A DNA stretch of 64,000 nt from Micractinium sp. NFX-FRZ (lineage: Eukaryota > Chlorophyta > Trebouxiophyceae > Chlorellales > Chlorellaceae), in the NCBI GenBank assembly GCA_029339195.1, contig JAPTJF010000049.1:159659-223658 (forward strand), written 5' to 3'. Position 1 is the first letter of the stretch. Each line of letters begins with the position of its first letter. The translations under genes and the position numbers were made by a program. Of this stretch, positions 5,932-37,696 are shown piece by piece. Under the pieces are notes generated by a model. It was not told the origin of the DNA. It did not search any database and was given only the letters and a program-made list of their open reading frames with translations.

Positions 5932-5973
<42 letters not shown>

Positions 5974-8900: not shown

Positions 8901-11900
8901 GGAGAGGGGCAGGCGGCGCTGGTCGTACTCGATCATCACGCTGCGCACGCCGGGGCTGGTCTCAATGAGGCCGTCAATTCCCTTGGCAGCCAGGTACTGC
9001 TCAATCTCGTGCACCCTGCAGGCGGCAGGGAGGGTTGGCCGGTGGTCAATTTGAGCCGATGGTCTGCCAGACTTAAGTGTTTGTGTAATGCGCCGAGCTG
9101 GCGCTCCAACACAGCATGCCCCGTCAGGCTGTCCCACTCGCCACCCATTCATTCACCCTTGCCCCATGACCAACACTTGCCACGCATGTTGAGGCCCAGC
9201 TCGAAAAGGCCCCCTTCACGCCCATCGTATCACACGCCTTTCCCTCAATCGCGCACCCGCCCAATCAAAGCAGATGCCCTCCCCGCCAGCTCACCTGATC
9301 CGCAGATTGTTTTTTGCGGATTTTTGCGGATTTATGCGGCCGCTCCCACTTCCCACCTAGCCGCCCGCCACTCATCTGACCACGGCTTCCCTCTCACATC
9401 ACCCCCGCCAGCTCACCTGATGCGCAGGTTGATGTCCAGCTCCATGCGGCCATACTCCAGGAACACGTAGCGGTCGCCCGCCAAGCGCACCTGCACAGGG
9501 ACAGAACGGGACCATGCCAGGCACGGGGTGTCGGTCCTTGCCCGGCAGAAGGGCACCATGCCAGGCGCGGGGTGAACGCTTGCCCGCCCCCCCGCCCCAT
9601 GGGGCAGAGCTGCCTTCCCCTTCACTCGGCTCCCACTCACGCCAGTGCTCGTGCTCAGGCAAGGGCTGCTGCTGGGGGTCAGAAATGGACAGGACGCACC
9701 TTGGCGCCCGGGTGCTTGCCCTCCACGGCGGGCACCACCTTGAGGACCGCCTCGGTGGGGGGGACCTCGGGAACGTCCACCTGCGGGGGCGGGAGGGGTG
9801 GGAGGGAGAGGATGCATGGGAGAGCGAGTCATGGGTTTGGCAGGGCAGGAAGAGTTCAGAGTGCCGCAGGGCAGCGGGCAGCAGTCCGCAGACATCAACC
9901 CCCCCCACAGCAGCAGCAGCAGCTGCATGTTGGTGCCCCCCCGTCCCGCCCCGCCCCGCCCCGCCCTGCACCAGCCGGCTGCCCCCCACCTTGTACGCCG
10001 CCATGTCGGCCACAGCGGCCTCAGCGCTCAGCGTGCCGCGCGCCACCTGGCACAGCAGCGCCACCTGGTGGTCCACCTGGAACCGCTCGATGTAGGCCTG
10101 CGGGGCGGCACGTGCACAAGCAGGCGGGCGTGGTTTAGTGGGCATGTTTTGGTGGGCAGCCACCATGTCTGGCAGAGAGCAGAGGGCACCTGGCACCAGT
10201 TGCCTGGCCCACCCCACCCCGCCTTGCTACCCCCTCTGCTTGGCCGCAATGCACGCCCAACCCACCGCGCCCACTGTATCCATCCCACCACAGCACGCAC
10301 AGCACGCACAGCACGCCACCCCCACCCGCACTCACCTCCTCCACCGTCAGCTGCTTGAAGCACACGGCGTCCCCGGGCCGGACCTGCCCCATCTTCCACA
10401 GCTCGGTGGTGGTGATGGTGGCGGGGCAGACAAAGCCTCCCAGGGAGGGGCCGTCCACCATGAGCACCACAGGCATGTCTCCAGTGAAGTTGATGGTGCC
10501 TGGAGGGGGAGGGGGGCGGCAGAAAGGGTGGCGTGTGTTGGTCGGTTGGCAATGCGCAAGAGCATGCGCTGCATGGTGCCTGGGGGCAGGGGGAGGGGGG
10601 GAGGGCAGGGGGGGCGGGGAAAGCAAACAGGTGGCGTGGGTTAACTGGTTGGTCATGCGTGAGGAGAAGCAAAGTTGATGGTGTCTGGGGGAGGAGGAAG
10701 GGAAGGAGGTGGGGGAGGTTGGTGGAGGGGCGGCAGAAGGAGGGTGGTGTGGGTTGGTCGGTTGGCAGGGTGCAGGAGCACGCAAAGGTGAATGGTTGCC
10801 GGGCGGCGCCAGGGCAGGAACAGTGGGGCGGGGCGGGCAGGGCAGCGCTTGGGTGCGGCCTCGCCAGGGCTGCGCTCTGCCAAGCCCTCCCCATGCTCCG
10901 CTGCGCGCGTGCTTGCACGGTGCCAGAATGGCGGGGGCTGGCGCTCACCCAGCGCGTACACGTGGTCGTGCACGTTGGAGGGGTGGCTGCCGCCCTCCCC
11001 GCCGTCGGCGCGCGCAAACTTGGGGCGGGGGCCCTCCATGCGGATGCCCAACCGGTTGCTGCGGGAGCAGGGGCAGGTTGGGAAGAGGGAGCAGGTGAGC
11101 ACGGGGGGTAAGGTAACCGGGTGGGAGGGGGTACGCAGGAGACGGAGCGGCGGGAGGCGCTGCCGCAGACGGGCGCAGCCGCAGTCCGTGGCGTGCCTCT
11201 GGAGCCACCCAGCGTGGCACAGCATGCTGCGCCGTGCTGCGCCGTGCTGCGCCGCGCCTTGCTGAGCTGTGCTGTGACATGCAACCAACACCTGGCGCCT
11301 GGCGCGTGCAGTGCTGGGCCCTTCCCTCCCCCCTCACGAGTTGTGGTGGATCTTGTAGGGCGTGGACAGCAGGGTCTGGATGTCCTCGGTGGTGAAGTAG
11401 TCTGGGTCGGCCTGGGGGCCTGCAGGGGGCAGGGGGGAGACTTGCTGAGCTAAAGGGGGCCGGCGGGAGGGCAGGAAGAGTGGTGCGCAGGCATGTGCGG
11501 GGGGCGGTGCCGGCGGTGGGTGGCGGGCGTTTGTTCGGGGGCTGACGCGCGCGAGGCGCTGACGACGGAAGGGTGTGCATTGCCGGGGAGCAGAGCGCTG
11601 GGCTGCAGGCAGCAGCTGCAGCCCAGCCGGCAAGGCAATACGGGGCAGGAGGGGACACCCTGGGCTGGCCCCAGCATGCCAGGCAGGTGTACTAGAAGGG
11701 GGCACATGGCACCCCACAGATGAGGCCACCTGGCCTCAGTCCGATCCTGGCGGCTTTGCCCAGTACTGCATGCCCCCATGCATGGGGTCACCCCAGGAGC
11801 TCACTGACCCTGGGCTGCCCATCCCAATACACTGCGTGCAGCCCAGCCACCTGCCAAGCCCACTGGCCTGCGCCAAGCGCCCCCCGCTCTCCTGGTCCCG

Positions 11901-14900
11901 CACGGCATGCCACGGTGCCGCTGCTGTGAGGGGGGTCCCAGCTCTGCATCAGCTTTCCCCCTAGGCCCCTGGCCACCTTTTTCTTAGAAACCAAGGCCCT
12001 CCTCACCAGCAACCCCAGCCCCGCCAACCCCAGCCCACCTGGCAGCACGCCCACGGTCCAGTCGCTGACGCCGCTGAGGAACTGCGGCCGCCAGGCTGGC
12101 GGCACGCTGGCGCCCACCGCCAGGCTGTCCAGCTGAGCTGGCACCAGGAACAGCATATCCCCGGGGCGCAGCGCCCGCCCTTGGTGGCCGCCCATGTTGC
12201 CTCCGGGGAAGGTGGACTTGGAGCCCAGGTATTCGGGCACGTCAAAGCCACCTGCCACTGCAATGTAGGCGCGGGAGCCGCCGGTGGTGGCGCCCACGCG
12301 CACCACCTGCCCCCGCTTCACGGCAAAGCTCTGCCACATGGGAGCCTCGGCGCCGTCCAGGGTGACGGGAGCGTCGGCGCCGCACACGGCCACCACTGCA
12401 GGCGGGGCGGGGGTGGGGGCGAGGAGCGGCAGACGGTGGCAGTGAGTGTGGCAGTGGGAGGTGGGCAGCGCTCTGGGTTGGAGACATGCATCCTCTCTCC
12501 CGCTTGCCGCCCTCAGTCCTCGCACAGCCGGCCCATTGCCGCACTCCCGTCGCCTTCCCGCTAAGTGTCTCTCTGTCAGCCCGCCCTGTCAGTCAGTCAG
12601 CCCTGTGGTGGCACTGGCACACAACAAACACCCCCCTTCCCTCCGCAGCGCCCCCCTTTGCCGCCCTCACCCGAGTCTGTGAGGAACTTCATGGTGGGGC
12701 CAGTCAGGGTGACCTCCAGGGCAGCAGCGGCGTCGTCGTTGCCCACCAGCGCGTTGGCCAGCCTGCAGAGGGGGAGGCGTGCGGCGGAACGGGAGTGGCG
12801 GGATGAGGGCAGGAGCAAAGGGCGGGGTGGCGGCAGCCGTAGAGAGGCGGGTGGGGACCAGGGCGAAGCAGGGGTGGGTTGAGGGCCGCAGATGGCGGCT
12901 ACGCCGCCACTCTGCCTGCACTCAGAAGCTACAGATCCCAATCACCCCACAGGCATCCAGGCAGGCATGCCTGCACCCAGGCGGGCATGCAGGCGGGCGG
13001 TCGGACCTGTGGGAGAAGTCGTCCATGGGACCGGAGGGCGGCACGCCCACCGACCACAGTGCAACGCGCCCCGGGTAGTCCTGCACCGTCGTCTGCAGCC
13101 CAGCGTCAATAAACTCGACTGCGCACAGGGGGGAGAAAAGTAGGGAGGGAATTGGAGGGCGTGAGCGGTGTGGCCCGTGGACTTGGCGGAGGTGCCATCT
13201 GACCCTTCAAGATGCAGGCATCCACACCCTACCCTACACCAGCACCGCATGCAACCCATGCACCCCGCCCTACACCAGCACCGCATCACAGCATCCCACA
13301 CCAAGGCCCAATCGAAGCAATTCATGAGAACAAAGCAGACCCACCCGCGTGGGGCGCGTAGTCCAGGTACTCGACAAACTTGGTGGTCGTGTCGCCGGCG
13401 GCGTAGCGCGGGGAGGCGGCAATGACACGCAGGTACTCCAGGTTGGTGGTCACGCCCTTGAGCTGCGGGGTGGGAGAGGCGGGGTGGGAGGGGCAGGCAC
13501 ACAGGGCAGCGGTGGGCGGTGCGGGCAGGCAGGGGAGGCTGAGGTGCCAACCCCCCGCGATCGCTGGCCGCGGCCAGGGCAGGCAGAGCGGGGGCCGGTG
13601 GGCAGCCAGCCCTTGCACGGGACCCCACCTCACCATTTACCCCACTAGCAGTGTCATTCACTTCGCTGGCAGGAAGGCAATGTTCCCACAAGCCTTGGCA
13701 CGCACTCTCTCACACCTGCGTCTCGTCCAGCGCCGCACACATCTTGGCAATGGCCTCGGGGCGTCCCTCCGGGGAGTAGACCATCAGCTTGGCAAGCAGG
13801 GAGTCGTAGTAGGCTGGGCACAGGCGAGGTGTGGGGGGAAGGGGATGTGCAGGGGAGGGAGCATGTGAGGGGAAAGGCGTGGATTGGGAGGGCCCCCGCC
13901 TGGGCGCATGGCGTGGGCTGTCTGGGGAGCAGCGGGGCAGTGGAGGCAGCGCAGCCTGCCTGTCCCTTCTGCGCTGCCGCTGCACTCCACCTATACCGCT
14001 GCACTCCACCTATACCCTACCCCTGCTCCACTCTGCCCCACGCTTCCCTGCCCCGCTGCCCACCCACCCCTCCTTCCCTCCCTCCCCTTCCGGCACCCAC
14101 TCACCCGACACCTCCACGCCCGTCTCCACCCATGTGTCCACCCGGTTCTCCGTCGCCGTGGGCCACGCCACCAGGCCCAGCACGCCGGTGCAGGGGCGGT
14201 AGTTGTGGGCGGGATCCTCCGCACAGATGCGCACCTCGATGGCCTGCCCCACCATGGCGGGCTGGTACGAGGCCAGGTCAGACGGGAGCTCGCTGCCGGG
14301 GGCGCCCTGCAGTGGGGGGAGACGAAGGGGCAGGAGAAGGTGGGGAGGGGGCAGGGTGGGAAGGGCGGGGACGTAGGAGGGCGGCTCGCTGCCTGGTGCA
14401 GCCCGTGGGGGGGAGAGGCTGGAGCGCATTTGCTGGCTGGCTGTGCTGCCCCACGGCCCGCTCCACAACACCCTGCCAATGCATGCACGCGCTCCCCGCA
14501 TGGTCCTGGCCTGCCGCCCGATCGCACTCCTTTCCCTTCCCCCGGCACACCTGCAGCTCAAACTGCCAGCACACCAGGTCCACGCCGCTGACCATCTCCG
14601 TGATGCCGTGCTCCACCTGCACAGCAGGCACAGCGTGGGCTCAGTGCACAGCAGGCACAGCGTGGGCTCAGTGCACAGTGCACGGTCAGACACGCTGCAC
14701 ACTGGAAGGCAGGCGGCGGAGGGGGGGAGGCGGTCATGGGCACAGCCCATCCCAGAGGCCAGCTGCCACGCTGGCGTTTGCAGCACCCCTTCCTGCACCC
14801 ACCCACTGGGTACACTTCCACCCCCACATAACACCATGCCACACCACACCCGTGCACACACACTTGCCTGCAGGCGTGTGTTGACCTCCAGGAAGTAAAA

Positions 14901-17135
14901 CTCCCCGGTGTCGTCATCAACAATGTACTCCACAGTGCCCGCAGACCTGCACACGGGAGGTGCACACATGCCGCCAGCACATGAGCATCTGAGAGCACGT
15001 CGCGGTGCAGTGCAGGAGGCGGCGGGGGCTGGGCGCTGTGCCTGCCGCCCACGCACCATAGGGCCGCTGCGCCATCCCCAGACATCAAGCGCTTGTGCAG
15101 CCGTGCTCGCCCCACATGTTACTCACGCTAATCCTTCCTGCACACCCAGCCATCCTGGCACCCACCCCAGCCCCCGCCCACCTGTACTTGGCCAGCTTGC
15201 CCAGCCGCTTGGCGGCCCCCTGCAGCTGCTCCCGAAGCTCGGGGGTCACAAAGGGCGAGGGGCTCTCCTCCAGCACCTTCTGGTGCCGCCGCTGCAGCAG
15301 GGGGAAGGGGGGAGGTGGCAGGGGGGAGGGAGCGATAGGCAATGTGGGTTCACTAAAAAGGTTCCCAAAGCAGGCTGGGCGCTCACAAGGCGGTGCTGCC
15401 GCCGCTGGTGCCAAACCCCGGGGGAGCAGGAAGGCGACGGCCCAGCCGGGCATCGGAGTGGCGGCTGCTACTGCCCAGCTGCACTGGAGGGCCCGCCCCA
15501 CCCCGGCCTACGGGCCGACCAGAAGCACTCCCAGCTGCTACCACCCACTCACTGTTCATGGCCCACCATGCATGCCCCACCCCAGCCGCGGGCCACTTGG
15601 CACAGCAGCGCTCCTGCCTCACACTCACACACACCTGGATGGAGCACTCGCGCTCTGGGAAGGCCACCACGTTGCCCTGCCCATCGCCAAAGATCTGGAC
15701 CTCGATGTGGCGTGCGCGCTGCACATACTTCTCCACAAACACGCCGGCGTCGCCAAAGGCGGCGGCGCCCTGGCGTGCCGCGGAGATGAAGTTGTTGGCC
15801 ACCTCCTCCTCGGTGCGGCAGATGTGGATGCCGATGCCGCCGCCGCCGCCTGCACACGGGTCGCATGGGGTTGTGGGTGACTGAGCCCGCGGGGTGTTCC
15901 TGCTGTCGTACGCATGCGGGGCAGCACAGGGCAAGACACTGCAGGCCTGCAGAGGCACCGCGCGTGCAGTGGCTCAGCTGCCCGAGCATGTCTCCACGCT
16001 GTTCCCCGCCTTCCGTGCACAGCACAGCACAGCACAGCGCGCAGGCTCACCGGTGGCCTTGAGCAGCACGGGCAGCCCCACTTTGCGTGCATACTCGAGC
16101 GCCTCCTCGCCGCTGCTCAGCAGAGGGCTTCCGGCCAGGATGGGCACCTCTGCTTGCTCCGCAAGCTCACGTGCGGTGTGCTTCTGTGCAAACATGCCCA
16201 TCGTCTCTGCTCCAGGCGAGGCGGGGCGGGGCGCATGGGGCGCGGGTGGGTGGAAGCATGGGTGAGAGCAGGGATGGGAGAGCATGGGCAAGGCACAGGA
16301 GCATGCCAGGAGCGGGACAGTCATGGCATTGGCATAAAGGCCAGGCAGGCTTCCAGAGGTAGTTTTACACACTTTGAACGCTTGCATCGGTGCCACGCAT
16401 GCACGCATGCCGCCTGTGAGCTCGCCCCGCACGGCCCCCAACCTGCCCTGCCCCCACTGCATCCGCACGCAGCCGGGCCCAACCAAGCAGGCGTCGCACC
16501 CGCGGTGGGGCCGATGAAGGCGATGCCGTTGTCCTCGCACATTGCGCTGAACTCTGTGTTCTCTGAAAGGAAGCCGTAGCCGGGGAAGACGGCATCGCAG
16601 CCTGTGGGATGTGAAGGATTAAGGCGAGGGCCAGGACCGGGGTTGGTTGGTGGTGGTGGGACCGGGAGGGCAGGTTTGTGGCGGTGGCGGCGGCCAGTTG
16701 ATGGGCAGGCAGGCAGGAGAGGTGGGTGTCGGCGTGGGCGCAATGCAGGGATTGCGCCGGGGCATGCACGGGCGCTGCCCTGTCCCCGCAGCGCCCGTGC
16801 CCTCGCTCCCGCCCTTGCCACGCATTGGCCCCACTCACGTGCGCCCCACCACCGATTGCCCTTTGCTCTTCGCCCCCCCGCACGCCTGCCCGGCGCCCCG
16901 CCCACCCACCCGTGCTCTTGGCCACCTCCAGAAGCTTCTGTGCGTTCAGGTACTCCTTGGGGCTGGCACCCAGGCACACGCTCTCGGGCGCCTGGAGCAC
17001 ATGCAGGCTGAGCGCATCTGGCTCTGTGAAGACCGCCACGCAGGGCAGGCCAAGCTTCTTGCAGGCGCGCTGCGCGCGGCAGCTGATCTCGCCGCGGTTG
17101 GCGATCAGGATCTTTGTGATCACGCCCAGGGTCAT
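4891..17135 (-). CDS. DUR1: Urea carboxylase (ATP- and biotin-dependent), 31 exons
   Basis: Carboxylates urea to allophanate, the first step of the ATP-dependent urea pathway. The model runs from ATG 17135 (context GCCACCATGA) to TGA 4891-4893 and gives 1240 aa. Residues 1-457 form a biotin carboxylase: [10 protein letters not shown], a glycine-rich [12 protein letters not shown] loop, and EVNTRLQVEH. Residues 458-799 form a KipA/AHS2-like domain (GVPPSGPMD). Residues ~800-1065 form a KipI/AHS1-like domain ([11 protein letters not shown]). The C-terminal biotinyl domain has EAMKME, biotin Lys about 1205. Exons include 16910-17135, 16500-16601, 12039-12395 and 4891-5019. Two introns are GC-AG (donors 14867 and 8888). 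There is no fused allophanate hydrolase, unlike the yeast bifunctional enzyme. An open Ala-rich stretch upstream lacks an ATG; an N-terminal extension from a further exon cannot be excluded. Confidence 0.93.
5089..5136 (-). repeat. Intronic pseudo-copy of the biotin-attachment exon
   Basis: In intron 30, the start of the last urea-carboxylase exon (4974-5019) is repeated about 115 bp upstream in transcript order. It still encodes [15 protein letters not shown] beside the real [15 protein letters not shown], so a second AMK biotin motif is legible. The acceptor cag has become cat in the copy, so it is probably not spliced. Confidence 0.75.
5933..5973. repeat. (ATTG)n microsatellite
   Basis: About ten uninterrupted ATTG units lie in a urea-carboxylase intron between exons 5627-5717 and 6129-6260. 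Length polymorphism is expected; no function is apparent. Confidence 0.95.
9280..9309 (-). repeat. Intronic copy of a urea-carboxylase exon 3' end plus donor
   Basis: The end of exon 9417-9490 with its GTGAGCTGGCGGGG donor region (9402-9431) is repeated about 121 bp further into the intron with two or three mismatches. It could act as a decoy donor. Confidence 0.6.
10570..10760 (-). repeat. Two intronic repeats starting at a urea-carboxylase exon acceptor
   Basis: Blocks beginning near 10574 and 10674 repeat the start of exon 10336-10499 (GTINFTGDM). The second still reads DTINFASPH after a ccag acceptor. Each is followed by a similar ggcgtg...ttggtcggttggc tail, so the intron is built from about three ~80-100-bp tandem units. 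Confidence 0.6.
14381..14412 (-). repeat. Intronic copy of a urea-carboxylase exon 5' end
   Basis: The start of exon 14105-14306 ([11 protein letters not shown]) is echoed about 96 bp upstream in the transcript as [11 protein letters not shown], together with its purine-rich flank. The copy is diverged and no longer has a perfect acceptor. Confidence 0.5.
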
Positions 17136-18932: not shown

Positions 18933-21900
18933 ATGGCGGCAAACAGTGACATGTGAGCGGGGCGTGCTTTTGGGCAGGCGTGTTGGTCCGCCATGGTTGA
19001 GCACCGCCGGTCGGCAGCTGCTCCGGTGCCGGTGGGCACCACATGCATTCAGATGCCAGCCGCACCACGGCAAGCACCCAACACTGACGCACTCCCTGCC
19101 CATATGCCCACGCTGTCCACCCTGCAGGTATGTGGGCCCCAACTGGTGCGGCGTCTGCCCCGAGGGCAGCCCCCTGGCGGGCGAGTCTGGGTGAGTGGCA
19201 GCGCCGCTATCAGCGGCGGCAGCAGCGGCACCACCGCCGGCGGGCGGGGCTCCTCGCTCTTGTGGAACAGCCCTCCTGCATGCTTTCCTGGCTTCTTTCC
19301 TCAGCACCTATCTATCAGCAGCCGCGCCCAGGGACCTGCCCGGTGGCAACAGCGTGCAGCGGGCCCTGCGCGGTGGCCCCCTCCTGCACGCTCTTCCTCG
19401 CGCATCAACGCCTCCGCCTTCCACCCCGCACCACCTCACACCCTCCGCTCCCCCCCCTCCGCTGCCCTCCTCACGTGCAGCAAGTGCAATGCTTTCGGCA
19501 TCGCCGAGTACAACTGCCTGGACTCCTTCTTTGGAGGCACCCCCCCGCTGCCCCAGGGCTACGGATACGGGTGAGCCTGCTGCTGCCCGCGCTGCCTTCT
19601 GGGGCCTGCCTGCTGTACGCTTGTGCAGCTGCTGCCCGCACCGGACCTGTCCTCCCACACGCAGCACTCTCAAACTCTCCAGGCCTCTCCTCCCACTGTC
19701 TCTGGCCGTCCCTTTCCGGCCTCCACCCCCACTCCATCACCCCCGTCATTCCCTGGTGTCCTCCCCACCCTTCCTGGCCTGCCGGGTCGCACCGCGTCCT
19801 CACCCCTGCTCCCCGCCCGCCACCTCCCCCCACGCCCTGCAGCATCGTGATTGCCTTTGGCGTCTTCTTCTCCGTCGTCACCTCCTTCCTCGTCTGGCTG
19901 GACTACCGCTATGGCGGCACCAAGCAGACCTCCGAGCAGTTCAACACCGCCGGCCGCTCCGTCAAGACTGGCCTGATCGCCAACGTCATCGTGTCCGAGT
20001 GGACCTGGGCCGCCACCCTGCTGCAGAGGTGGGGCCTGGAAGCAGCGGGTGTGGAGTGGCGCGTGGGGATAAGATTGTGCCCAGCTGCCCCTGCATGCCC
20101 GACGCCTGTGCAAGCCGAGCCTCCTGCCCGCTCCAACCACCCGCCTCCATTGACCACCCTCACTCACCCCTTGTCCACCCCGCCCCCATCTCTCGCCCTC
20201 CCGCCCCGCAGTTCCAACGTGGCATGGCAGTACGGCGTGTCTGGCCCCTTCTGGTACGCCTCCGGCGCCACCATCCAGATCCTGCTGTTCGGCATCCTGG
20301 CCGTTGAGATCAAGCGCAAGGCGCCCAACGCGCACACCATGCTGGAGATCATCCGCGCTCGCTGGGGCAACACCGCGCACAAGGTGAGGGGCTGGGGGAG
20401 GGTGAGTGTGAAGTGCATCCTGGATGAGGTTGAAGTGAAGTGTGCAGTGGCGCGCATGCAGGGCCTGCCTGCCTGCCGTGACTGCCTGCCAGGCCCCGCC
20501 TGCCCGCCAGAACCAGCATCTCACCGCCGGCCTGCCCCCCCACACCCCACCCCACCCCGCAGGTCTTCTTCTTCTTTGCCATCCTCACCAACATCATTGT
20601 GTGCGCCATGCTCCTGCTGGGAGGCGCCGCCGTGACCCAGGCGCTGACCGGTGAGCCCCCTCTTTTTCTTTGCCGCCTTGCTGTGCATGCGGCAGGCAGC
20701 ATGCCGCGCAGCCACGCTCTCCTGCCTGCCGCCCAGCTTGTGCTCCTCTGCCAGCCAGCCTTAAGAGCCAACCACCAATCCCTCGCACGTTTCCCAACCC
20801 ACCGCTGCCCCGCAGGCATGAACCTGTATGCCGCCGCCATGCTGATCCCCGTGGGTGTGATCATGTACACCGCCCACGGCGGCCTCAAGGCCACCTTCAT
20901 GTCGACTTACCTGCACACCGTGGTCGTCTTCATCGCCCTCTGCCTCTTCGCCTTTGAGATCTACGCCACCCCCAACACCGGTAGGCTGGCAACACTTTGT
21001 CGTACAATCACGCCGGCGGGGGACGGCGCAAGCACATGTGCCGCCAGTCCACACCCCCACCTGCACCCCCCGGCCCACTCCAACCTATGCCCTCCCCCAC
21101 TCTTGCTTCCCCCCTGGCTTGCAGGCCTGGGCTCCCCCGGCTCTGTGTGGGAGCACCTGACCGACATTGCCCAGAAGGGCGGCGCCTACAAGGGCCCCGT
21201 GGCCGACAACAAGGAGGGCTCCTACATCACCATGTTCTCCAAGGGAGGCCTCATCTTTGGCGTCATCAACGTCATGTGAGCAGCACGGGCGGTGGAGGGG
21301 TAGGAGGTGGCGACAGCGGCGGTGGGGTGCCTGCCCGCCTCCCGGCGCCTGCCGACAGCCCCTGGCACCCCTGAATGCCTCCCTGACCCCTTCTGTTGCC
21401 TCCCCCTCCCTTCCCTTGATGCAGCGGCAACTTTGGGACGGTTTTTGGTGAGTGTGGGGCAGGGGGCAGGGGGCAGTCCGCTTAGCTGTTCAGTGGGCAG
21501 TGGGGCAGTCCGCTTGGGTGTTCAGTGGGCAGGGGGCAGTCCGCTTGGCTGTCCCCTGTTCCTGCCGGCCCCTCTGGCCCGCCCCATCTCTGTTGCCTGT
21601 CCGTCGCTGCTGCCCACCAGCAGCAGCGCATCCAAGCCCACGGCTGCCAGGCTCAAAACAGCCCAGCCTTGCCCGCCTGCATCTGTTTTTCCTTTGCCTC
21701 ATCCTCCCCCCGTCTCAACCCTCAGTTGGCTACTCAGTTTGTTTCGTTTACAGTGTTGGTTGCTGTGCGTGCGGTGTGGTGTGTGGTGTGCTGCCGTGTG
21801 CGTGGCGGGAGCAGCAGGGGACGTGGGAGCGCTCCCCCCGCCTGCCCGCCCTTGCACCCGCCTGCCCGCCCTTGCACATGCCTGCCCACAGCCTTGATGC

Positions 21901-24900
21901 GCTCAATGCTGCACCCAGCTCAGCTCGCACGGGCCCGCCTGCATGCCGCCTCCAGCAACAGCCCCTGTTGACCAATCACTAACTAACCTCCCCCCGCCTC
22001 TCTCCCCCCCCTCCATCCCCCCCGCCCCCTTGGCTCGTCCTTCCTTCAGTCGGTGAGTTCTCCCCAACTGCTGCTTTTTAAATGCTGGTCTGCTGCTTGG
22101 GCGCCTCCGGCACCACTGTTTTGCTTGGCACGGCTCTCTTTCCTCTTGTTGCGTGCGCCTCGATGCTTATGCTGGTGGGCATCTTGCGCCTACAACTGTG
22201 GTTTCATTCCCCTTTGTGCATAAAGCGCCGCCAGCTGAACTGCTGAAACCCCATTGCACCCGCGCTGCACCCCTCTCACCCTCTCCCTCCCGCATTTCCC
22301 CCCTCCCTCCCTCCCCCTCCTGCCCCCCGCAGACCAGGCCTACTGGATGGGCGCCATTGCCTCCCGCCCCTCTGCCTCCTACAAGGGCTACATCCTGGGC
22401 GGTCTCATGTGGTTCTCCATCCCCTTCACCCTGGCCACCTCCCTGGGCCTGGCCTCCGTCGCACTCGACCTGCCCATCACCAAGAGCGAGGCCGGCGCCG
22501 GCCTGGTGCCCCCCGCCGTGGCCGTGCACATCCTGGGCAAGAGCGGCGCCGTGTGGATCACCATCATGCTGGTGAGCCGGGGAGGGGGCGTAGGGTGCCT
22601 TCTCAACGGCAGCGCCTGCGTTGGGTTGGCGGCGCTGAGAAGCAGCAGCAGACAGCAAGGAGATTGGGCAAAGCCAGGCATGCACGTAGCGAAAGTGGTC
22701 TCACGCCTTCCCTCCCTCCCTCCCTCCCCCCCGCACAGTTCATGGCGGTGACCTCCACCGGCTCTGCTGAGCTCATCGCCGTCTCCTCCCTCTTCGCCTA
22801 CGACTTCTACCGGTGAGGCGGCTGGCCGGCGGGAGTGGTGGCCGGGAGCAGATGCGCTGGGAGCTCGCTACCTGTGCATTGCGCGCGCTCGCCCCCTGCT
22901 CCAATTCCCCCCCCACATACACAACCCTCAACCACCTCTCCATCCCCTCCCCTGTCTCCCCCTCGCTGCTGCAGCACCTACATCAACCCCAAGGCCACCG
23001 GCAAGGAGATCATCCGCATGTCCCGCTACTGCATTGTCACCTTTGGCCTGTTCATGGGTGTGCTCGCCATCATCCTCTTCAAGATCGGCCTCTCCCTGGG
23101 CTGGGTCTACCTGTGAGTGGCCTGGCTTGACCATTGCCAGCTTTCTCAGCTTGGCTGGGGTGGCACGCATGCATGCATGGCCCTACCCCAGCATTGCGCG
23201 CAGCTGCTTGCCTGCCTGCTGTGCCATCCCCTCTCCCTCGCCACCCCTGCCTGCCCGCACCACCCCTGCCGCCGCTCTCGACCCCACTCACCCTCGCCTC
23301 CCCCCGGCCTCCCCTCCCCGCAGGTTCATGGGCATTGCCATTGGCGGCGCCGTGGCCCCAATCTACATGGCCCTGGTGTGGAGCAAGGCCAGCAGCGTCG
23401 CCGCCATCACCGGCGCCATTTCCGGCACCTTCCTGGGCCTCATGGCCTGGCTGGTCACCTGCCAGGCCTACTACGGCAAGATCAACATTGACAACCTGGG
23501 CGGCGACTACCCCATGCTTGCCGGCAACCTGGCCTCGATCCTCGGCTCCCTGGCCATTGTCAGCGTCATGTCGCTCATCAAGCCCCAGAACTATGACTGG
23601 AAGACCACCCGCGAGATCCCCACCATTGAGGAGGATGCCAGCGCGCACCACGAGATGACTGGTGGGTGGGCAGGCTGGCAGGCAGGGGTGATGGGGGCCC
23701 GGCTGGGCCGCAGGAGGCCGGGGGTCCTGTTGGCAGGCGAGATGTAAATGGATGCATCGTTAGGGCACAGGCCTGGCTCCCCTTGCGGGGGGGGGGGCAT
23801 CGGTGGGCCTGGGACTGGCTGCCCCACTCCACACGCGGCCCTGCTCTTCCCACCCGCCCCACGCACCGCACCCCCTCCCCTCTCACACGCACCCCGTGCC
23901 CCTCTTCCCACCGCACCCACCCTCCCCCGCAGGCGTGGACAGCATGGACAGCATGGACAAGGCCAAGAAGATTATGATGTGGGTGGGCTGGGGCCTCTCC
24001 ATCACCCTGGTGGTCGTCTGGCCCCTGCTGGCCCTGCCCGCCGGCGTCTTCTCCAAGGTGAGTACGCAGAGCGAAAAAAATGAGTATACATATACACACA
24101 CACACCACAGCAGGGGGCGGGGCAAGGGTGAAAACACGGGTTGGCACCGCTTCTCGGCAGCCGTCGCTCGGCCCGTGGGATGGTTGCGGCTGGGGCCGGC
24201 AGCGACCCAGCATGGGGGTGGCCCCGCCGCCCACGCCGCCCGCAGGCATGCGCCCCGCCCCGCTGGCGCAGCTCCCCGCGCTGATCCCATCCCGCCACGC
24301 TGCCTCCCCTGCTGCCCCGTCTGCAGGGATACTTCACCTTCTGGGTGATCCTGTCCATTGTGTGGGGCCTGCTGGCCACCATTGTCTCCACCTCCCTGCC
24401 CCTCTGGGAGGCCCGCGAGTCGCTGTGGACCGGTGAGCCAGGGGGCGGTGGTGCCGTGGGGCGGCAGGGGATGTGTGGGGGCGGGGGGAGGAAGCCTGGG
24501 GGTGGGGCGCTTCCTGCTGCCGAGGCCCGCCCCCCGCTGCACTGGGCCCCCCATGCCTGCGTGCCTCGTTCTAGCACTGCTGCCGCCGCCACTGCTCCAC
24601 CACAGCCCGTCCAAAGGCGCTCACTGCTGCCTCCACTGCTCTGTCCACCCCCGCAGTCACCCGCAACCTGGTGACCTGCACCACCCCCACCGCGGAGGAG
24701 GAGCTCAGCGGCGAGGCCGTGCCCGGCGACTTTGCCAAGCAGGTAGGGATAGGGCGTGTGTGGTGCCACGAGTTGTGTATGCGTGTTGACAGCCCCTCTG
24801 TTGAGGGAATGAGCAGCAAGCCTTGCCAAGCACTGAGGGCCGCACGCATGCTTGCCCGCTAGCGCGCCGGCCTGGTGTGGCCGCACCCCTGTTCCCACCG

Positions 24901-26125: not shown

Positions 26126-27414
26126 TCACTGCCCTCCCTCGCCTCCTGCCGCTGCCGCTGCCGCTGCCTGCTGCTGCCGCTGCTGCTGCCGCTCCACGTA
26201 GGAGAGCCAGCTGCCCAGGTGCGTGATCTCCTCCACAGTGTCGGCACCCCCCTTGCAGGCCTCTGCACACGTGATGGGCGGGCAGCGGGAGGGAGGGGCG
26301 AGGGTTGGGTGCGGCCGAGCTGTTGGTTGCTGTTGTGCTGCTGCTGCTACTGCCGGGCAGGAAGGGGGCCACCAAAGCGACGGCAGCAAGGTGGTGCACA
26401 GCCCGCAGGCGGCCTCAGGCAACCAGGCTGCGGCTTCCTGCTTCTTCCCTGCTTCTTGGCACAGCGCTGCAGGGGGTGCCACTGCAGCCCGCACCCGCCT
26501 CTCGGGCACCCTCAGGCATGCACCAGCTGGCGTGCACCAGCCGGCCCGCACCATACTGCACCCTCCCAGCCTCTCTTCCATCCAGGCCAGTGCCCACCTG
26601 CCAGGACAGGCCCACCTGCCACCCAGCCCTTGCAGCCATGCAGGCCGGGTTGGTTGCAGTTTGTAAGCAGATGCCGCAGGGCTCACCTGCCACCCATCCC
26701 TCGCAAATGAACCCCTTGACGCTCTCCCCGTCCTCCAGCTTCACTGTGCCAATGCCCAGCGGGGCCGGCACCTGGAGGGGGTAAGTACAGGAGCAGCTAC
26801 ATGTGCATGGCCTGCTCGCAGCATCGACTGGCCGCCAGGCATATCCACACAACTGGTGGGCAGGTAGCAGCAGCAGGGGAGGACGCTGTTCGTTCAACAA
26901 CAACAGGCATACTCCAGATGCACTCACCAAGTTGATAAAGTGCCCCACGTTTTCGATGGGCATGTCCCACACCTCCAGGTGCACCGGCACGCCGCTGCCG
27001 TCTGTCACCGCTATCATGCCCGGCTTGGTCTTGCCGGCCGCATCGGTGAAGGCATACAGCCTGGGCGTGGGGAGAGGGAGGAGGCGGGCAGGGAGGAGCG
27101 GTCATCATGTTAGGTCGCCTCTTTAGGGGTTGAGGAGGACTGCCGAGACTGAGTGGACCGCCTGATAGGGCACAGGTGTGCAGTGGGCAGCGGCATGCAA
27201 CTGGCGGCGGTCCCGACCGCCGCCGCCGCCACCGCCGGTGGGGGCAGCCCTGCACGTGCGCAGTATACCTGTACTCTGGCGCTGATCGGCACTCCTTCAC
27301 AAATGTGCTCCGCAGGTTGGTGAGCTGCGAGTTGAGGGGCTGGCCGCGCAGGTGGAGGCCGCAGACGGCCAGCAGGAAGCGCTGCCCGCTCGCAGCAGCA
27401 CTTGCAGCCGCCAT
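26126..27414 (-). CDS. Stand-alone allophanate hydrolase C-terminal domain protein
   Basis: Exons 27269-27414, 26928-27060, 26687-26771 and 26126-26262 give 166 aa; ATG at 27414, TGA at 26126-26128. The product is collinear with the C-terminal domain that follows the amidase in full-length allophanate hydrolases (AtzF, yeast Dur1,2). Matching stretches: LLAVCGLHLRGQPLNSQL, then CRSAPEYRLYAF, VHLEVWDMP, VPAPLGIGTVKLEDGESVKGF, and THLGSWLSYV, ending in a Gln/Ala-rich tail. In the yeast-type enzyme that domain decarboxylates the N-carboxycarbamate released by the amidase; the His of GLHLRGQPLN (about residue 21) belongs to its conserved motif. The amidase gene starts 328 bp away, divergently, and lacks this domain, so the two products probably work together. 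No targeting signal is obvious. Confidence 0.88.
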
Positions 27415-27741
27415 TCCTATCAAATTATATGCTGCTGATTCACCGTTGCATGTGTGACTATTGCGCCACCCGCGGCCGCATGGGTGGCCCCATGCGCAGT
27501 AGGGCGCAGGCCTGCTACGCCCCAGCGTCCCTAACGCCTGCCCCCTCACCATCCGGCCCGACCCCAGCGTTAACTGCCCCCTGTATTTTCATCTTGCGTT
27601 GAGCGGGCTGCCCACCCGCCAAGACCAGCTGCCCTCGTTGCAATTGTGCCTCTCTGGCCGGCCCCAGGCCCGCATACGGCCCGGCTCCAAGCGCCCCTGA
27701 GGCTGTGATTGCATTTTGTTGAGCGACAGGCAGCCCGCGCA
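27415..27741. promoter_or_regulatory. Putative bidirectional promoter of the split allophanate hydrolase
   Basis: Only 327 bp separate the two start codons. A local AT-richer patch (atcaaattatatgctgctga, near 27418-27437) is the best TATA-like region and lies close to the hydrolase-C start. Shared control would give matched amounts of the two halves; this is inference from position. Confidence 0.5.
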
Positions 27742-30700
27742 ATGCCGCTCACCACCGCCGACCTCACCCTGCCGGCGCTGCGTGCCGCCTACGCCAGCGG
27801 CAGCCTGACCCCCACGGAGGTCTGCCGCCAGCTGCTGCCCGCCGTCGCAGCCTCCAGCGGCGTCTTCATTGCCCGGCCAACCGTTGAGGAGGTGCTCGAG
27901 CGGTGCAAGTGAGTGGCGGCCGGGCGTTTGCGACGAGGGCAGCTGGGAGTAGGGCGGCGGCCCCGTGCCCAGCACAGGCGCATGAGCCAGACCCCCTACC
28001 GCACCCTCCATACCACCCAGGCAGGCAGGACGCACACTGCCTGCTGCAGCCAGGCGCTTCACCCCTGCCAGGGCGTGCCCCCTGCCTTTTCCCACCCCTT
28101 CCCACCCTCTGAATCTTCCTCTTGGCAGGTTCCTGGAGGCCCAACCGGCGGAGGAGCGGGGCCCGCTGTGGGGCATCCCCTTTGCTGTGAAGGACAACAT
28201 CGACGTTGCGGGGCTGGCCACCACCGCCGCCTGCCCCACGTTTGAGTACACGCCAGGGCAGCACGCGCGCGCGGTGGCGCCGCTTCTGAACGCAGGTAAG
28301 GGGCGCCGCCTGCTCTTGCGCGCGGGGCACCAGGGATGGCTGCTGCTAGAGGGTGTCCGCCAAAGCCCTGCAGGCGGCAAAGTGGGACAGAGGGCCACAG
28401 CGGGCGGCAAGCTGAAGCCGTGCAAAGCACTGCGCTGCTTGCCAAATTTCTGCCAGCCCCTGGCAGCAGGCCGCTCGCTGCTGATCGGTTAGGCAGGTGC
28501 CCCGATGCAGCATGCATGCGTGCGTGCACCTGAGACACCTGTATGCCCCCCGCCATCCCCTCCCGCAGGCGGCATCTGCCTGGGCAAGACCAACATGGAC
28601 CAGTTTGCATGCGGGCTGGTGGGCACGCGCACGCCCTACGGCATCCCAGGTGGGTGGGCAAGTGGCGACAGGGGCAAGCACGCCGAGCGGGTTCGCAAGC
28701 ATAGCATGCATTTCATGCCCTGCCATGCCAGCTCACAGCAGCCATCGCACGCGCCTGTCCCCTCCCTCTCTCCTGTTCTGTCTACTGGCAGCCAATTCAG
28801 TGACGATCTCATCTCCCTTGGAAGACCCTCCCGAAGCTGTGCTGCTTGCCAGCTCTGCTCCCTACCTCTGGCTCCTTTCTCTTCGTTCTCTGTGCCTCCC
28901 CAACTTGCGTGCTGCACCCAACAAACGCGGTCGACGGCTGCCTCAGCCCTTCCTGAGGCTGTGCCGCCAGCCGGCTCTGTCCCTACCTCCGTCCCCTCTG
29001 TTCCCTGCGCCTTGCGTGCCCCGCAGCCAACTCTTTTGACGACCGCTTCACCCCTGGCGGGTCCTCCTGCGGCTCCGCTGTGGCGGTGGCCGATGGGCTG
29101 TGCACCTTTGCACTGGGCACAGACACCGCTGGGTCGGGTGAGGAGCCTCGGCAACTTGCCGCCTGCCGACCGTACCCCCCGGCCCCGTCCCTGCCTTCCT
29201 TCCTCCCCAGGCTGCGTGCCTTCTGGCAACAGGGGCATCGTGTGGGCATCTGCCTGTTCATGCCTACCCACCATGCCTGTGTGCAGATGCGCACCTGCCG
29301 TCCACACACCCTCCCCCGCTCCCCGCCCCGCCTGCTTTCCTCCCCGCTCCGCAGGCCGCGTGCCCGCCGGCAACAACGGCATCGTCGGCATCAAGCCCTC
29401 CGTGGGCCGCTTCTCCACCACGGGGGTGGTCCCAGCCTGCTACCTGCTCGACTGCGTGTCCGTGTTTGCGCTGTCCGTGGCCGACGGCGCTGAGGTGGCA
29501 CGACTGATGGAGAATGCGGACATCGCGGGTGGGTGGGGTGGTGGGGTGAGGTGGGAACAGCGGGCGGGCGTGTGTCTGTGCTGGCGCCAGCGGGGCGGTG
29601 CGGTGCGGTGCTGAGGTGGCACGGCTGATGGAGAATGCAGACATTGCGGGTGGGTGGGGTGGGGTGGGTGGGAACAGCGGCGGGCGTGTCTCTGTGCTGG
29701 CGCAAGCGGGGCGGGGGATGGCGCTGAGGTGGCGCCTCTGTGGAGAATGTGGACACTCAGGCGGACGGGTGTGGAACGGGCGGTGGGTGGGTGAGTGGGG
29801 AGGCGGGGTGGGCGGGCGGATGGGAGCCAGGGAGGGTGAAGTGGCAACCAGGTGGGCCGGGCAGGCGAGCCGACGCAGGCTGAGCGTGGCATGTGCCCGC
29901 TGCAAGCCCCGCCGGTGCGCCCTCCATCCCCTGCCATGCCCTGCAGACCCCACCTACCGGCTGCCCAACGCGGCCAACCTGCAGAGGCGGTACGAGCCCC
30001 AGGCCAGCTTCCGCTTTGCCCTCCCCAACCCAGAGGTGTGTGCATGCTGCTGCTGCTGCCTGCTGCTGCTGTCGGGGTGGTGTCAGGCTGCCCCCGCCTT
30101 CGGGCTGCTGTTTCTGCTGGTGCTGGAGCTGGTGCGCATGACACTATCGCCGAGGAGCCAGCGCTGCTGGCAGACCCCCCCTCCCCGCCTGCCTGCCTGT
30201 GCTGGTGCTCACACTGCTCCCTGTGTTGCGCCATGCACTCGCCCTGCCGGTCAGCTGCATTGTCGCCACACGTCTGTCCAATGTAACTCGTCCTTCCTGC
30301 CCATCAATCTGCAGTTCCTGGACGATTCGTTCAAGGGCCCCGGTGGCGAGCCTGTGCGGCAAGGTGGGCGGGGCCTGCTGGCTGGTTGGCCGGCAACAGG
30401 TTGCCTGCTGCCCGCCTGCCTGGGCTGGGCGCCGTGATGCAAGCGTGACCCAGCACAGCACCTTGCCCAGCACAGCAGCACCTGCATGCCGCACTGACGG
30501 GGAGCCGTCAACCCCGTCGTCCGCACCTGCCCGCCCGATGATGCATGCCAGCTGCCCTCAGTGCTGCCCCTGCACATACGCCCACCACGCTTCCCTTCCC
30601 TGCCACATGCACACCTCCCCCTGTCCCTGCCCCCGCTGCCCCGCTGCCATTGCAGCCATGGAGGCGGCCATGGGCGAGGCCGTGGCGCGGCTCACCGCTC

Positions 30701-33064
30701 TGGGCGGCGTCCCCGCCCCCGACTTTGACTTTGCCCCCTTTGCCGCCACCGCCGTGCTGCTCTACGGCGCCGCCTTTGTGGCCGAGCGCTACGCCGGCAT
30801 CCGGGCGTTCCTGGAGGGGCCTGCTGCCCCTGCCGCCGCCGGCGGGCTGACGGATGTTGCGGGGGATGAGCGCATGCTCAAGGTCATCCGCACGATTGTC
30901 AACAAGACCAGCGGGTTCAGCTCTGCAGACGTCTTCCAGGGGCTGCAGCAGCTGTCGGAGCTGCGGGGCAAGGTGGGCGCCGGGGCGCGGCAGGTGGCAG
31001 CTGGCAGGAAGCTGAGCCATGTGGGTGTGTGGGCTGCAGCAGCTGTCGGAGCTGCGAGGCAAGGTGGGCGCCGGGGCGCGGCAGGTGGCAGCTGGCAGGA
31101 AGCTGAGCCGTGTGGGTGTGTGGGCTGCAGCAGCTGTCGGAGCTGCGGGGCAAGGTGGGCGCGGGGCTGGGAACAGGGGCTAGGCAGCTGTGGCGGATGG
31201 GGCGTGGGTGTGCGGGTGTGCGGGGAGCAGCAGGGGGCAGGCATGGGTGGGGTTGGGTGGATTGGGGCGTGGGTGTGCGGGGTGTGCGGGGAGCAGCAGA
31301 GGGTGGCAGGTGTGGGGTTGGATGGAATGGGATGTGGGAGTTGTGGCAGTTTTCAGGTGCAGCTGGCAAGGTGCGTGGCAAGGTGGTGTTGGGGTGGGAG
31401 AGCATGGATTGGAGCCGCGGAGTGTGGATGGGGCGGTTAGATGGTGAGGACCCGTCCTGTGAAAGTGGCTTGGGGTCATGACAGGCTGATCTGGGAAAGG
31501 CCAACTTGCTGTTCATGCGCCACTTTCCATTGACAGACTTTTCACTTGTCCTATGCCCCCCCCGGCCCCCCCGGCTGTGCAGTGCCGTGCTGAGCTGGCC
31601 AAGATCGACGTGCTGGTGGTGCCCACCTCTGCCTACAACTACACGGTGCAGGAGATTCAGGTGCGCCCCAGGCCTGGGGCACTGCCTTTACTGGACACTG
31701 CCTTTTCACTCGAGTCGAACGGGGTGTGGGTTGCCGAACTCTGCCTGCGACTGGCTGCGCAGGCAGTGCCTGTGGGGAGGTTGGTGGTGGGCTGGTGGCT
31801 GCCCTAGCCGCTGGTTGAAACGAGTTGCAAGCCTGCATCTCGTCACAGGCTGCCAGGCACCTGCCGAACCAGGTGTGATGGGGAGGTTGATGAGGAGGGG
31901 GCGGCTGGCTCACAATGGTGTGACCACATGTCGGTCGTCGTCATCATCCCAGGAAAGCGCGCACATCATGTGTTGTGAATCCAAATCCAATGTATGCAGG
32001 CAGAGGAGGAGGAGCCTGCCTATGAGGACGTGACCTTCAGCAAGAATGCAAACTTGGGCAGGTGAGGCGGCGGCACAGAGCGGGGGAGGGGGAGGCGGGC
32101 AGCGGCGCGGGCGGGCGGGCTGGCAGGCGGGCGCGGCAGGCATGGCGCGCTGGGCAGTGGGTGCTGGCTATGGATTGGGTGCCGCGTGGGTTCGTGCGAC
32201 ATGTGTCTGCCCAGCTTCCTGCCACGGTGCTGGCACGGCACTCGTCGGGCACTCGGGGGAGTCTGCGCAACGTGTGCCTGCCCAGCTTCCTGCCGCTGTG
32301 CTCCCACAAGCTTGGCAGGCCCCTCGTCGTCCAATAACTGTACAGATCTACGCGCCCCGGCGGCCCACCTCGCCCCCGACCGCTGCCTCCTTCTGGCCAC
32401 ACTGTTCCCTGTGCCCCATGGCCGCAGGTGGACCAACTTTGTGAACCTGCAGGACATGTGCGGCGTCAGCGTGTTCAGCGCCCTGCTGCGGCCACAGGGC
32501 GCCGCACCCGCCAACGGCGGTGGCGATGCGGCGGCAGCGGAGCAGCAGCGGCGGGCGGAGCACCTGGCGGCCACAGGCAACGCCGCCCCAGGTGTGTGTG
32601 TGTGTGCGTGTGTGCGTGTGCGCATATGGAGGCGGCGCAGGGGGGCATCGGAAATGGTGGTGCTGCGCGTGCAGCGCATTGGGGACCGCCAGCCAACTGC
32701 GTGCGGGGGCAAACTGTGCTCAGCTCCGAGACAGCGAGCATGGCTGCCGGCTCCAAGGCTAGTGCCATACCTGCCTCCCTACCAGCCTCCCGCCCTATTC
32801 CCCCTCCCCACCCACCCCTGTGTTGCGCCCTATCTCCCAGCACAACCACAACCAGCGACATCACCAACCTTGTGCTCCCCTCCCCTGCCGCCCCTCCCTG
32901 CCGCCCCACCCTCAGTCGTGCCATTTGGCATCACCCTGCTGGCCCCCTCCTGGACTGATGAGTACGTGGCCGGCATTGCCGCTGCCTATGAGGCTGCCAC
33001 GGGCCTCAAGGCGGGTCCGCTGGGCCATGGCGTCACCCCCTACCGCACCCCCGCCCAGCAATAG
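27742..33064 (+). CDS. DUR2: Allophanate hydrolase, amidase domain only
   Basis: Hydrolyses allophanate, the product of urea carboxylase, on the way to ammonia and CO2. Twelve exons (27742-27908, 28129-28295, 28569-28649, 29027-29137, 29355-29528, 29947-30035, 30315-30363, 30656-30972, 31583-31660, 32000-32061, 32428-32591, 32916-33064) give 535 aa. Amidase-signature triad: Lys about 77 (PFAVKDNID), cis-Ser about 151 (PGGSSCGSA), nucleophile Ser about 175 ([14 protein letters not shown]). The spacing 74 then 24 equals that of AtzF. Further family stretches are [21 protein letters not shown] and [15 protein letters not shown]. The protein stops right after the amidase fold at TPYRTPAQQ; the usual C-terminal domain is missing and encoded by the divergent neighbour. 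Three introns carry copies of exon ends. Confidence 0.94.
29204..29250 (+). repeat. Intronic copy of the 5' end of an allophanate hydrolase exon
   Basis: The acceptor and start of exon 29355 ([14 protein letters not shown]) are repeated about 144 bp upstream as ccccag followed by [11 protein letters not shown]. The copy keeps the AG acceptor but then diverges. Confidence 0.75.
29489..29760 (+). repeat. Three tandem copies of an exon 3' end plus donor (allophanate hydrolase)
   Basis: The exon end coding [13 protein letters not shown] with its gtgggtgg donor (from 29489) recurs from 29610 and, degraded, from 29722 (periods 121 and 112 bp). The second copy retains a good donor and an almost identical coding strip. 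Confidence 0.8.
30941..31190 (+). repeat. 91-bp tandem repeat spanning an exon-intron junction (allophanate hydrolase)
   Basis: ggctgcagcagctgtcggag begins at 30941, 31032 and 31123, an exact 91-bp period. Each copy holds the exon end [10 protein letters not shown] and an aag|gtgggcg donor, so three near-equivalent donors exist. Only the first belongs to the open exon; using a later one would add intron-derived residues. Confidence 0.9.

Positions 33065-37655: not shown

Positions 37656-37696
<41 letters not shown>

Follow-up and report, generated by a model that had tools for sequence, protein, structure and literature searches.

The amidase and the C-terminal domain (AH_C) of allophanate hydrolase are separate neighbouring genes on opposite strands of the window, the whole stretch of 64,000 nucleotides that was analysed (Table 1). 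We consider it likely that together they form a two-polypeptide allophanate hydrolase, encoded within a gene cluster for urea assimilation in a green alga close to Micractinium. Such a two-polypeptide system was the function put forward in the original prediction, and the tiling of the two domains, the kept residues and the surrounding urea cluster support it as the probable function.

Table 1. Positions of the urea-assimilation genes and their parts in the window
Feature	Position	Strand	Evidence or remarks
Urea carboxylase	4894..17135 (approximate, detected exons; ~12 kb)	-	tblastn, 39 bacterial urea carboxylase ORFs
DUR3-type urea-proton symporter	19841..24422 (approximate, detected exons)	+	phmmer against solved DUR3 9j7c
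Separate gene for the allophanate hydrolase C-terminal domain (AH_C)	26126..27414	-	4 exons, 166 aa, spliced open frame
AH_C exons in reading order	27414-27269, 27060-26928, 26771-26687, 26262-26126	-	
Intergenic region between divergent ATGs	27415..27741	.	327 bp; sequence and length
Amidase half of allophanate hydrolase	27742..33064	+	12 exons, 535 aa, spliced open frame
Amidase exons 1-6	27742-27908, 28129-28295, 28569-28649, 29027-29137, 29355-29528, 29947-30035	+	
Amidase exons 7-12	30315-30363, 30656-30972, 31583-31660, 32000-32061, 32428-32591, 32916-33064	+	

In exon models based on sequence and homology, splicing at GT-AG sites gave one open frame for each gene, and the coordinates, exon structures, divergent arrangement and intergenic gap agreed with those first predicted. 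Judged by its length and by the orientation of the genes, the intergenic region is presumed to be a shared promoter. Both proteins match the same allophanate hydrolase models, the amidase at the N-terminal part and AH_C at the C-terminal part. On the NCBI model PRK08186 (600 positions), the amidase takes up positions 5-453 and AH_C positions 463-599, and this tiling leaves 9 positions uncovered between them. The two domains are found in separate genes on opposite strands and not in one chain. AH_C matches in the 66-Mb assembly were confined to three exons of the gene in Table 1, and no second AH_C that the amidase transcript could draw on was found in this profile scan by exon, which might overlook a copy with only very small exons.

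Profile searches agreed with the domain identities originally given for both proteins. The 535-aa protein matched PF01425 (Amidase) at residues 47-502 (E 3.4e-71), and solved allophanate hydrolase chains matched it with E values of 1e-69 to 1.3e-84. Two allophanate hydrolase models gave by far the best scores, 457 and 432 bits, the next amidase family reaching 168; both scores nevertheless fall short of the models' cut-offs (487 and 511), which were presumably set on fused proteins. K77, S151/S152 and S175, which we take to be the Lys-Ser-Ser triad of the amidase signature, are identical in the window amidase and in 20/20 algal rows. The same holds for the presence of Y316 and R324, presumably the Tyr/Arg pair that serves the carboxylate of the substrate (Y299 and R307 in Granulibacter). 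Among the near-constant columns, 78/85 are retained in the window amidase and seven differ.

The 166-aa protein matched PF21986 (AH_C) at residues 15-144 (E 3.8e-42), with a score of 143.6 bits against a curated cut-off of 27, and positions 3-122 of the 123 in the profile were covered. Solved allophanate hydrolases matched it with E values of 1.2e-25 to 6.5e-30. Because of these values and of similar AH_C proteins in other algae, the match is beyond chance. Membership of another family, which the original prediction had named as one of two outcomes that would speak against it, is ruled out by the agreement of PF21986, PRK08186 and the solved structures. AH_C keeps 24/26 columns with a constancy of 95% or more across 48 fused AH_C domains; the two altered ones are L53 to F and A131 to V. 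Its H21 aligns with H492 of Kluyveromyces lactis, which Fan et al. (2013) are said to have proposed as the putative active-site His, and a His stands at this position in 12/12 algal and 24/24 other stand-alone or split rows. The dimer-interface glycines G559 and G572 of K. lactis are also kept, as G88 and G101; in yeast, double mutation of these glycines, made in the fused enzyme only, gave a monomeric and weak enzyme (PMC5770610). For P0002, the AH_C protein of a Micractinium relative, structure prediction gave a single well-folded domain with a mean pLDDT of 91.6.

The pair belongs to a cluster of urea genes in the order urea carboxylase (-), DUR3 transporter (+), AH_C (-) and amidase (+). 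This cluster around the pair is absent from the original prediction. Urea carboxylase, which is present and linked to the pair, was detected by tblastn in 23 merged pieces; every one of them lies on the - strand, and together they span query residues 1-1230. The sole match of CT_C_D in the genome scan (8865-9032) lies inside this gene. For DUR3, three + frames gave 70, 217 and 189 bits against 9j7c, and the frames also showed a weak SSF match under Pfam's cut-off. No SSF match was listed in the whole-genome scan, though the DUR3 gene is present. The genome scan gave no urease alpha either, and this absence is weak because the same kind of scan also missed the DUR3-type transporter.

The survey of other green algae that had been proposed as a check found the same split. 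All 23 named green-algal rows among the best 120 of 7998 amidase matches have the amidase-only form. Named stand-alone AH_C rows, among the matches listed, numbered 6 and came from Micractinium, Chlorella, Nannochloris and Trebouxia. Five of these proteins (147-157 aa) cover 78-90% of the 166-aa protein with 63-81% identity, and that of Trebouxia (154 aa) covers 84% with 45% identity. Five named relatives and one further contig appear to carry amidase and AH_C on one contig (AH_C/amidase rows P0002/P0117, P0003/P0120, P0005/P0122, P0006/P0121, P0010/P0129 and P0007/P0118), a linkage implied by equally long contigs for both matches, which give neither gene order nor orientation. In two of the linked relatives, the locus tags of AH_C and amidase are adjacent. 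Since the amidase-only form is found throughout the named rows, the split must date far back among green algae and is common to relatives, rather than species-specific or a local accident. Chlorophycean, Coccomyxa and Bryopsis amidases are present among the best 120 matches. No AH_C row bearing the name of such an alga stood among 115 matches or among the best 120 of 3707, in which most rows are nameless, so there may be green algae that do without AH_C. Among the matches listed, titles and abstracts of the open-licence literature gave no description of a split allophanate hydrolase in algae.

According to the proposed function, DUR3 would import urea, urea carboxylase would convert it to allophanate, the 535-aa amidase would take off the ammonia, and the 166-aa AH_C would process the carboxylated product by decarboxylation, the reaction of the C domain in yeast allophanate hydrolase. 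AH_C would probably also dimerise, and the resulting assembly would be able to bind or stabilise the amidase. We infer that amidase and AH_C act in the same reaction, and they may also bind each other and share regulation. As the original prediction held for Kluyveromyces, sequential reactions are reported to be catalysed by the N and C domains of the K. lactis enzyme (PMC5770610). AtzF467, an amidase-only truncation of AtzF, is reported to be as active on biuret as the whole enzyme, and trypsin splits AtzF into 48 and 14 kDa parts (PMC3944691), which indicates that the amidase need not be covalently joined to a C domain in order to function.

A different reading, which we regard as unlikely, has the amidase alone acting as the allophanate hydrolase of green algae, with a product that decays non-enzymatically and an AH_C that is a relic or has another job. 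The full biuret activity of AtzF467, which lacks the C domain (PMC3944691), also fits this reading. In addition, AtzF proteins of archaea are described with a truncated C-terminus (PMC12625717), and this, together with the activity of AtzF467, suggests that AH_C may be dispensable. The amidase-only algal rows, next to AH_C rows that among the matches listed are named from four genera only, point the same way, as do the many cyanobacterial AH_C copies with much lower scores (95-138 bits), by which the family may hold other functions. However, nearly all near-constant columns are kept in the AH_C of the window, the putative active-site His among them; AH_C also seems to be linked with the amidase in the five named relatives and, in the window, sits within the urea cluster. 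It is highly improbable that the AH_C exons are an annotation artefact, being part of a longer gene or of an amidase isoform: AH_C lies on the opposite strand with a start codon, a stop codon and consensus splice sites of its own, predicted proteins of similar length occur in other species, and an MMETSP transcript (P0022) holds a complete 149-aa AH_C ORF. The two-polypeptide enzyme is thus the reading we prefer. Its extension to green algae in general, as a separable two-step relay in which the amidase acts autonomously and AH_C is a decarboxylase with independent expression, kept in Trebouxiophyceae and lost in Chlorophyceae and others, is speculative and, in our estimate, rather doubtful.

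For the origin of the split, the original prediction offered gene fission, through an inversion of the 3′ part, as a simple explanation and supposed that a fused gene had been replaced in this lineage. Neither view is supported as stated. Split amidase/AH_C pairs exist in bacteria (12/80 loci, of which 9/12 have a urea carboxylase ORF in the examined DNA), and algae and all cyanobacterial rows are compatible with one group, although this group was chosen after the first tree (AU p 0.237). Together with the age of the split, these results make replacement of a fused gene in this lineage a hypothesis; a fission by inversion, if it took place, would date far back. A common origin for the split rows as a whole was rejected (AU p 1.6e-5), so fission or fusion of allophanate hydrolase has happened more than once in evolution.

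Two histories have to be weighed. A fused bacterial-type gene may have been broken on the green-algal stem, with its 3′ part inverted or relocated beside the 5′ part, which we find plausible, if somewhat short of probable. Both the repetition of fission or fusion and the location of the break between the two domains agree with this, and in the amidase tree the algal clade (support 100) lies beside the fused metagenome proteins P0189 and P0194 (SH-aLRT 95, quick search). However, the AH_C tree, in which P0255 groups with Nitrospira and was not counted as algal, places the algal clade beside the fused Nitrospira L005 (91/90) instead, and the amidase-tree placement was not repeated in the tree of both halves, where the position of the algal clade has no resolution. 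The latter tree was made without L021, L077, L055, L053, L011, L029, L016, L070 and P0198 (long or redundant), and its Nannochloris row joins proteins from two strains (2526A and 2526B). Alternatively, and with somewhat less confidence on our part, an already split pair may have come from a bacterium, such as a cyanobacterium-like donor, and later been rearranged head to head. Among 292 cyanobacterial genomes searched, 28 of the 29 bearing AH_C had no fused-length frame (a stand-alone AH_C was known beforehand in two of the 28, G001 and G004), and separate ORFs were seen at five cyanobacterial loci; the grouping of algae with all cyanobacterial rows given above also leaves room for such a donor. 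Against it, a group of algae with Nostoc-type cyanobacterial rows alone was rejected (AU p 0.0087), cyanobacterial rows form a group apart from algae in the amidase tree, and the 12 bacterial pairs have both genes on one strand, unlike the divergent algal pair. The trees of the amidase, of AH_C and of both halves disagree or leave the choice between algal fission and an inherited split pair unsettled.

The split of allophanate hydrolase into two genes is a genuine, if modest, variant of a known route for using urea, which four green algae are reported to carry without a urease gene (PMC3073912). The role of the C domain is disputed, being a second catalytic step in the yeast work (PMC5770610) but in AtzF a part that biuret activity does not require and that may have a role in organising oligomers (PMC3944691). 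With the C domain as a gene of its own, it can be deleted, tagged or titrated alone. If the relay and the loss of AH_C in some algae are true, green algae would provide a natural experiment on the second domain, showing whether its role is catalytic or structural or whether it is dispensable. In annotation, half of the enzyme can be overlooked when a search for green-algal allophanate hydrolase goes no further than the amidase.

Among known systems, the chlorophytes Chlamydomonas reinhardtii (Cre08.g360100/Cre08.g360050), Volvox, Chlorella NC64A and Coccomyxa are described with an amidase gene that is mostly near urea carboxylase and in some has a transporter gene nearby, and a separate C-terminal-domain gene is unmentioned in the available text of these accounts (PMC3073912, PMC5445130). 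It is likewise unmentioned in the available text on ammonia-oxidising archaea, whose AtzF has the truncated C-terminus (PMC12625717). AtzF of Pseudomonas sp. ADP, the Granulibacter enzyme (4gyr/4gys), that of K. lactis (4iss/4ist) and urea amidolyase (5i8i) share both domains and the active-site residues with the present pair, but carry the domains in one chain, whereas here they are two genes on opposite strands. The bacterial split pairs likewise have separate ORFs (amidase 457-534 aa, AH_C 129-149 aa); they include L015, L020, L030, L038 and L042 from cyanobacteria, L025 and L046 (Methylotenera), L027 (Paenibacillus), L019 (Cohnella) and L075 (Marinobacter), and all ten except L075 have a urea carboxylase ORF in the examined DNA. 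However, in all 12 pairs the two ORFs share one strand, in some cases with an overlap of a few bases; algal descent from such pairs is a candidate history. A solved stand-alone AH_C is PDB 5c5z (137 aa), deposited as 'Glutamyl-tRNA amidotransferase', which we take to be E. coli protein c4763; it is a single AH_C domain like the 166-aa protein, which it matches with an E value of 1.1e-18.

The two halves of allophanate hydrolase are encoded in the window by separate, divergent genes (table below), the start codons of which are separated by 327 bp. Amidase (PF01425) was the sole Pfam match of the 535-aa protein (E 3.4e-71), and the C-terminal domain of allophanate hydrolase (AH_C, PF21986) was that of the 166-aa protein (E 3.8e-42). 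Along PRK08186, the NCBI allophanate hydrolase model, the two proteins cover positions 5-453 and 463-599, respectively; therefore the break separates the two domains with little, if any, loss of sequence. Neither half alone reached the cut-off of this model, which was presumably set on fused proteins. In the PDB, the top relatives of both proteins were solved allophanate hydrolases. Hence, the original prediction of an amidase gene lacking its C-terminal domain, with this domain on a gene of its own on the opposite strand, is borne out by spliced frames, Pfam and PRK08186, and each half fits the family expected for it. Within the 66-Mb assembly AH_C was matched nowhere else, its three exon matches all falling at the locus.

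Features of the window and of two bacterial loci
Feature	Position	Strand	Remarks
Amidase gene	27742-33064	+	12 exons, 535 aa, consensus GT-AG splice sites
AH_C gene	27414-26126	-	4 exons, 166 aa, consensus GT-AG splice sites
Urea carboxylase gene	17135 down to 4894	-	tblastn with 39 bacterial urea carboxylase ORFs, 23 pieces
DUR3 urea-proton symporter exons	about 19841 to 24422	+	phmmer of three frames
Tandem 91-nt unit, amidase gene	30940-31212		three copies from exon 8 end, including splice donor
Copy of exon 5 end, amidase gene	29485-29667		62 nt with splice donor, 121 bp downstream, 90%
GNT-I family (N-acetylglucosaminyltransferase I type) exons	about 33100-42100	-	
WD40-repeat gene piece	about 39570-41500	+	
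Urea carboxylase, Cohnella faecalis	L019, 4443-8077		two overlapping ORFs, 376 and 927 aa
Fused allophanate hydrolase, Aphanocapsa sp.	L032, 7954-9756		

Two introns of the amidase gene also repeat the end of the exon before them, splice donor included. The third copy of the 91-nt unit is 63% alike overall. Because neither 91 nor 121 is divisible by 3, use of the next donor in these introns would shift the frame.

Residues constant in at least 95% of 48 fused bacterial proteins were mostly kept in both halves, in 78 of 85 columns of the amidase and 24 of 26 of AH_C. The amidase keeps K77, S151/S152 and S175, which we take to be the triad, and Y316 and R324, presumably the substrate-carboxylate residues equivalent to Granulibacter Y299/R307. 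The two AH_C changes are at L53, kept by 2 of 12 algal rows, and A131, kept by none of the 12. H21 of AH_C is kept and aligned with H492 of the K. lactis enzyme, and G88 and G101 are aligned with its Gly559 and Gly572, the double mutant of which is described as monomeric with an allophanate hydrolase kcat/Km 0.08 of normal (PMC5770610). Moreover, the predicted structure of AH_C from a Micractinium relative (P0002) had a mean pLDDT of 91.6, so the stand-alone protein can, according to this model, fold as a domain by itself.

Predicted AH_C proteins of 147-157 aa were found in Micractinium sp., M. conductrix, Chlorella ohadii, C. vulgaris, Nannochloris and Trebouxia (P0002, P0003, P0005, P0006, P0010 and P0036), and an MMETSP transcript encodes another of 149 aa (P0022). 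In six AH_C/amidase pairs, the longest contig is equal in size for both members (44573, 745312, 102035, 1453650, 1062352 and 3701), which we read as linkage; in two of these pairs the locus tags are consecutive (ABPG77_002623/002624 and COHA_007345/007346). Among the best 120 of 7998 amidase matches, Micractinium tetrahymenae was the nearest named relative (84% identity), and all 23 rows named as green algae by NCBI or UniRef had PF01425 without PF21986, including Chlamydomonas, Volvox, Pleodorina, Gonium, Scenedesmus, Raphidocelis, Coccomyxa, Apatococcus, Trebouxia and Bryopsis. Since the length range of this search took in fused proteins, and bacterial ones were present among the matches listed, the proposed survey of other green algae makes the split look like an old state of the group rather than something that arose recently in this species. 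No AH_C named as chlorophycean, Coccomyxa or Bryopsis occurred among 115 matches, or among the best 120 of 3707 in a second search, most rows in both being without a name. Database names on some AH_C proteins already read 'Allophanate hydrolase' or 'Allophanate hydrolase C-terminal dom...', and no description of a split enzyme in algae was found in titles and abstracts of open-licence papers.

Bacterial split pairs already exist in sequence. The genome-collection scan gave at least 575 AH_C relatives; in the best 80 loci, AH_C shares an ORF with amidase in 63 and stands apart in 17, a sample that is not neutral because the query alignment consisted entirely of stand-alone AH_C proteins. A separate amidase ORF lies nearby on the same strand in 12 of the 17, one of them (L008) with ORFs that overlap and may reflect a frameshift, and the sampled DNA of nine of these pairs (not L008, L021 or L075) holds a urea carboxylase ORF. 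By frame length alone (590 aa or more), and in samples containing genomes picked for a stand-alone copy (G001 and G004; G003; G002), AH_C occurred in 29/292 cyanobacterial genomes with one fused-length frame, in 47/249 Pseudomonadota with 43, and in 3/249 Bacillota, one below cut-off. Some cyanobacterial matches were partial and many low-scoring, so some of them may not be urea enzymes. In Cohnella faecalis, two urea carboxylase ORFs, a real split or a frameshift, adjoin the split allophanate hydrolase genes.

The algae may have broken a fused gene, or they may have received a split pair. In the amidase tree (96 rows, quick search), the algae are a single clade (100) next to two fused metagenome proteins (95), and split rows are scattered. 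In the AH_C tree (94 rows, 138 columns), the algal rows, counted without P0255, group together with weak support (90/40) next to Nitrospira (91/90). The tree of both halves (57 rows, 6 algal, 599 columns) gives an algal clade of 100/100 with no resolved place among bacteria. With groups picked after the first tree, AU tests on this set rejected one clade of all split rows and algae (p 1.6e-5) and algae with Nostoc-type rows (p 0.0087); the grouping of algae with all cyanobacterial rows was not rejected (p 0.237). On these tests, fission or fusion has been repeated several times. One conjectural route to the present orientation would be an inversion of the 3′ part. The fused enzyme of Aphanocapsa sp. 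falls among split enzymes of cyanobacteria, which suggests either re-fusion or a fused state of greater age.

Flanking the pair on the AH_C side are two more urea genes. Urea carboxylase pieces cover query residues 1-1230, and DUR3 stands between this gene and AH_C, giving the order urea carboxylase (-), DUR3 (+), AH_C (-), amidase (+), that is, two head-to-head pairs. Exons of a GNT-I family gene and a WD40-repeat piece occupy the amidase side. For four green algae, Strope et al. reported urease absent from all and, in three, urea carboxylase–amidase distances of 588 to 6236 bp (PMC3073912). According to this source and one covering C. reinhardtii and V. carteri (PMC5445130), the chlorophyte amidase gene is near a transporter gene in some species; the green-algal descriptions consulted in these two sources leave an AH_C gene unmentioned.

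Urea carboxylase would make allophanate, and the amidase would deaminate it. Most likely, algal AH_C uses the product of the amidase as its substrate and forms dimers, whether or not it also binds the amidase stably. Overall, we consider it probable that the two proteins function jointly, AH_C being a subunit or a separate enzyme. In the yeast enzyme, the second reaction, that of the C domain, is said to be a decarboxylation (reportedly Fan et al. 2013). The N and C domains of that enzyme catalyse sequential reactions (PMC5770610); trypsin cleaves AtzF of Pseudomonas sp. ADP at Lys467 into 48 and 14 kDa parts, the truncated form is dimeric, which the full-length enzyme is not, and on biuret its amidase part alone equals the whole in activity (PMC3944691); and archaeal AtzF proteins are reported to have a truncated C-terminus (PMC12625717). 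These results fit a separable C-terminal part; the activity on biuret and the truncation in archaea are also in keeping with a dispensable one.
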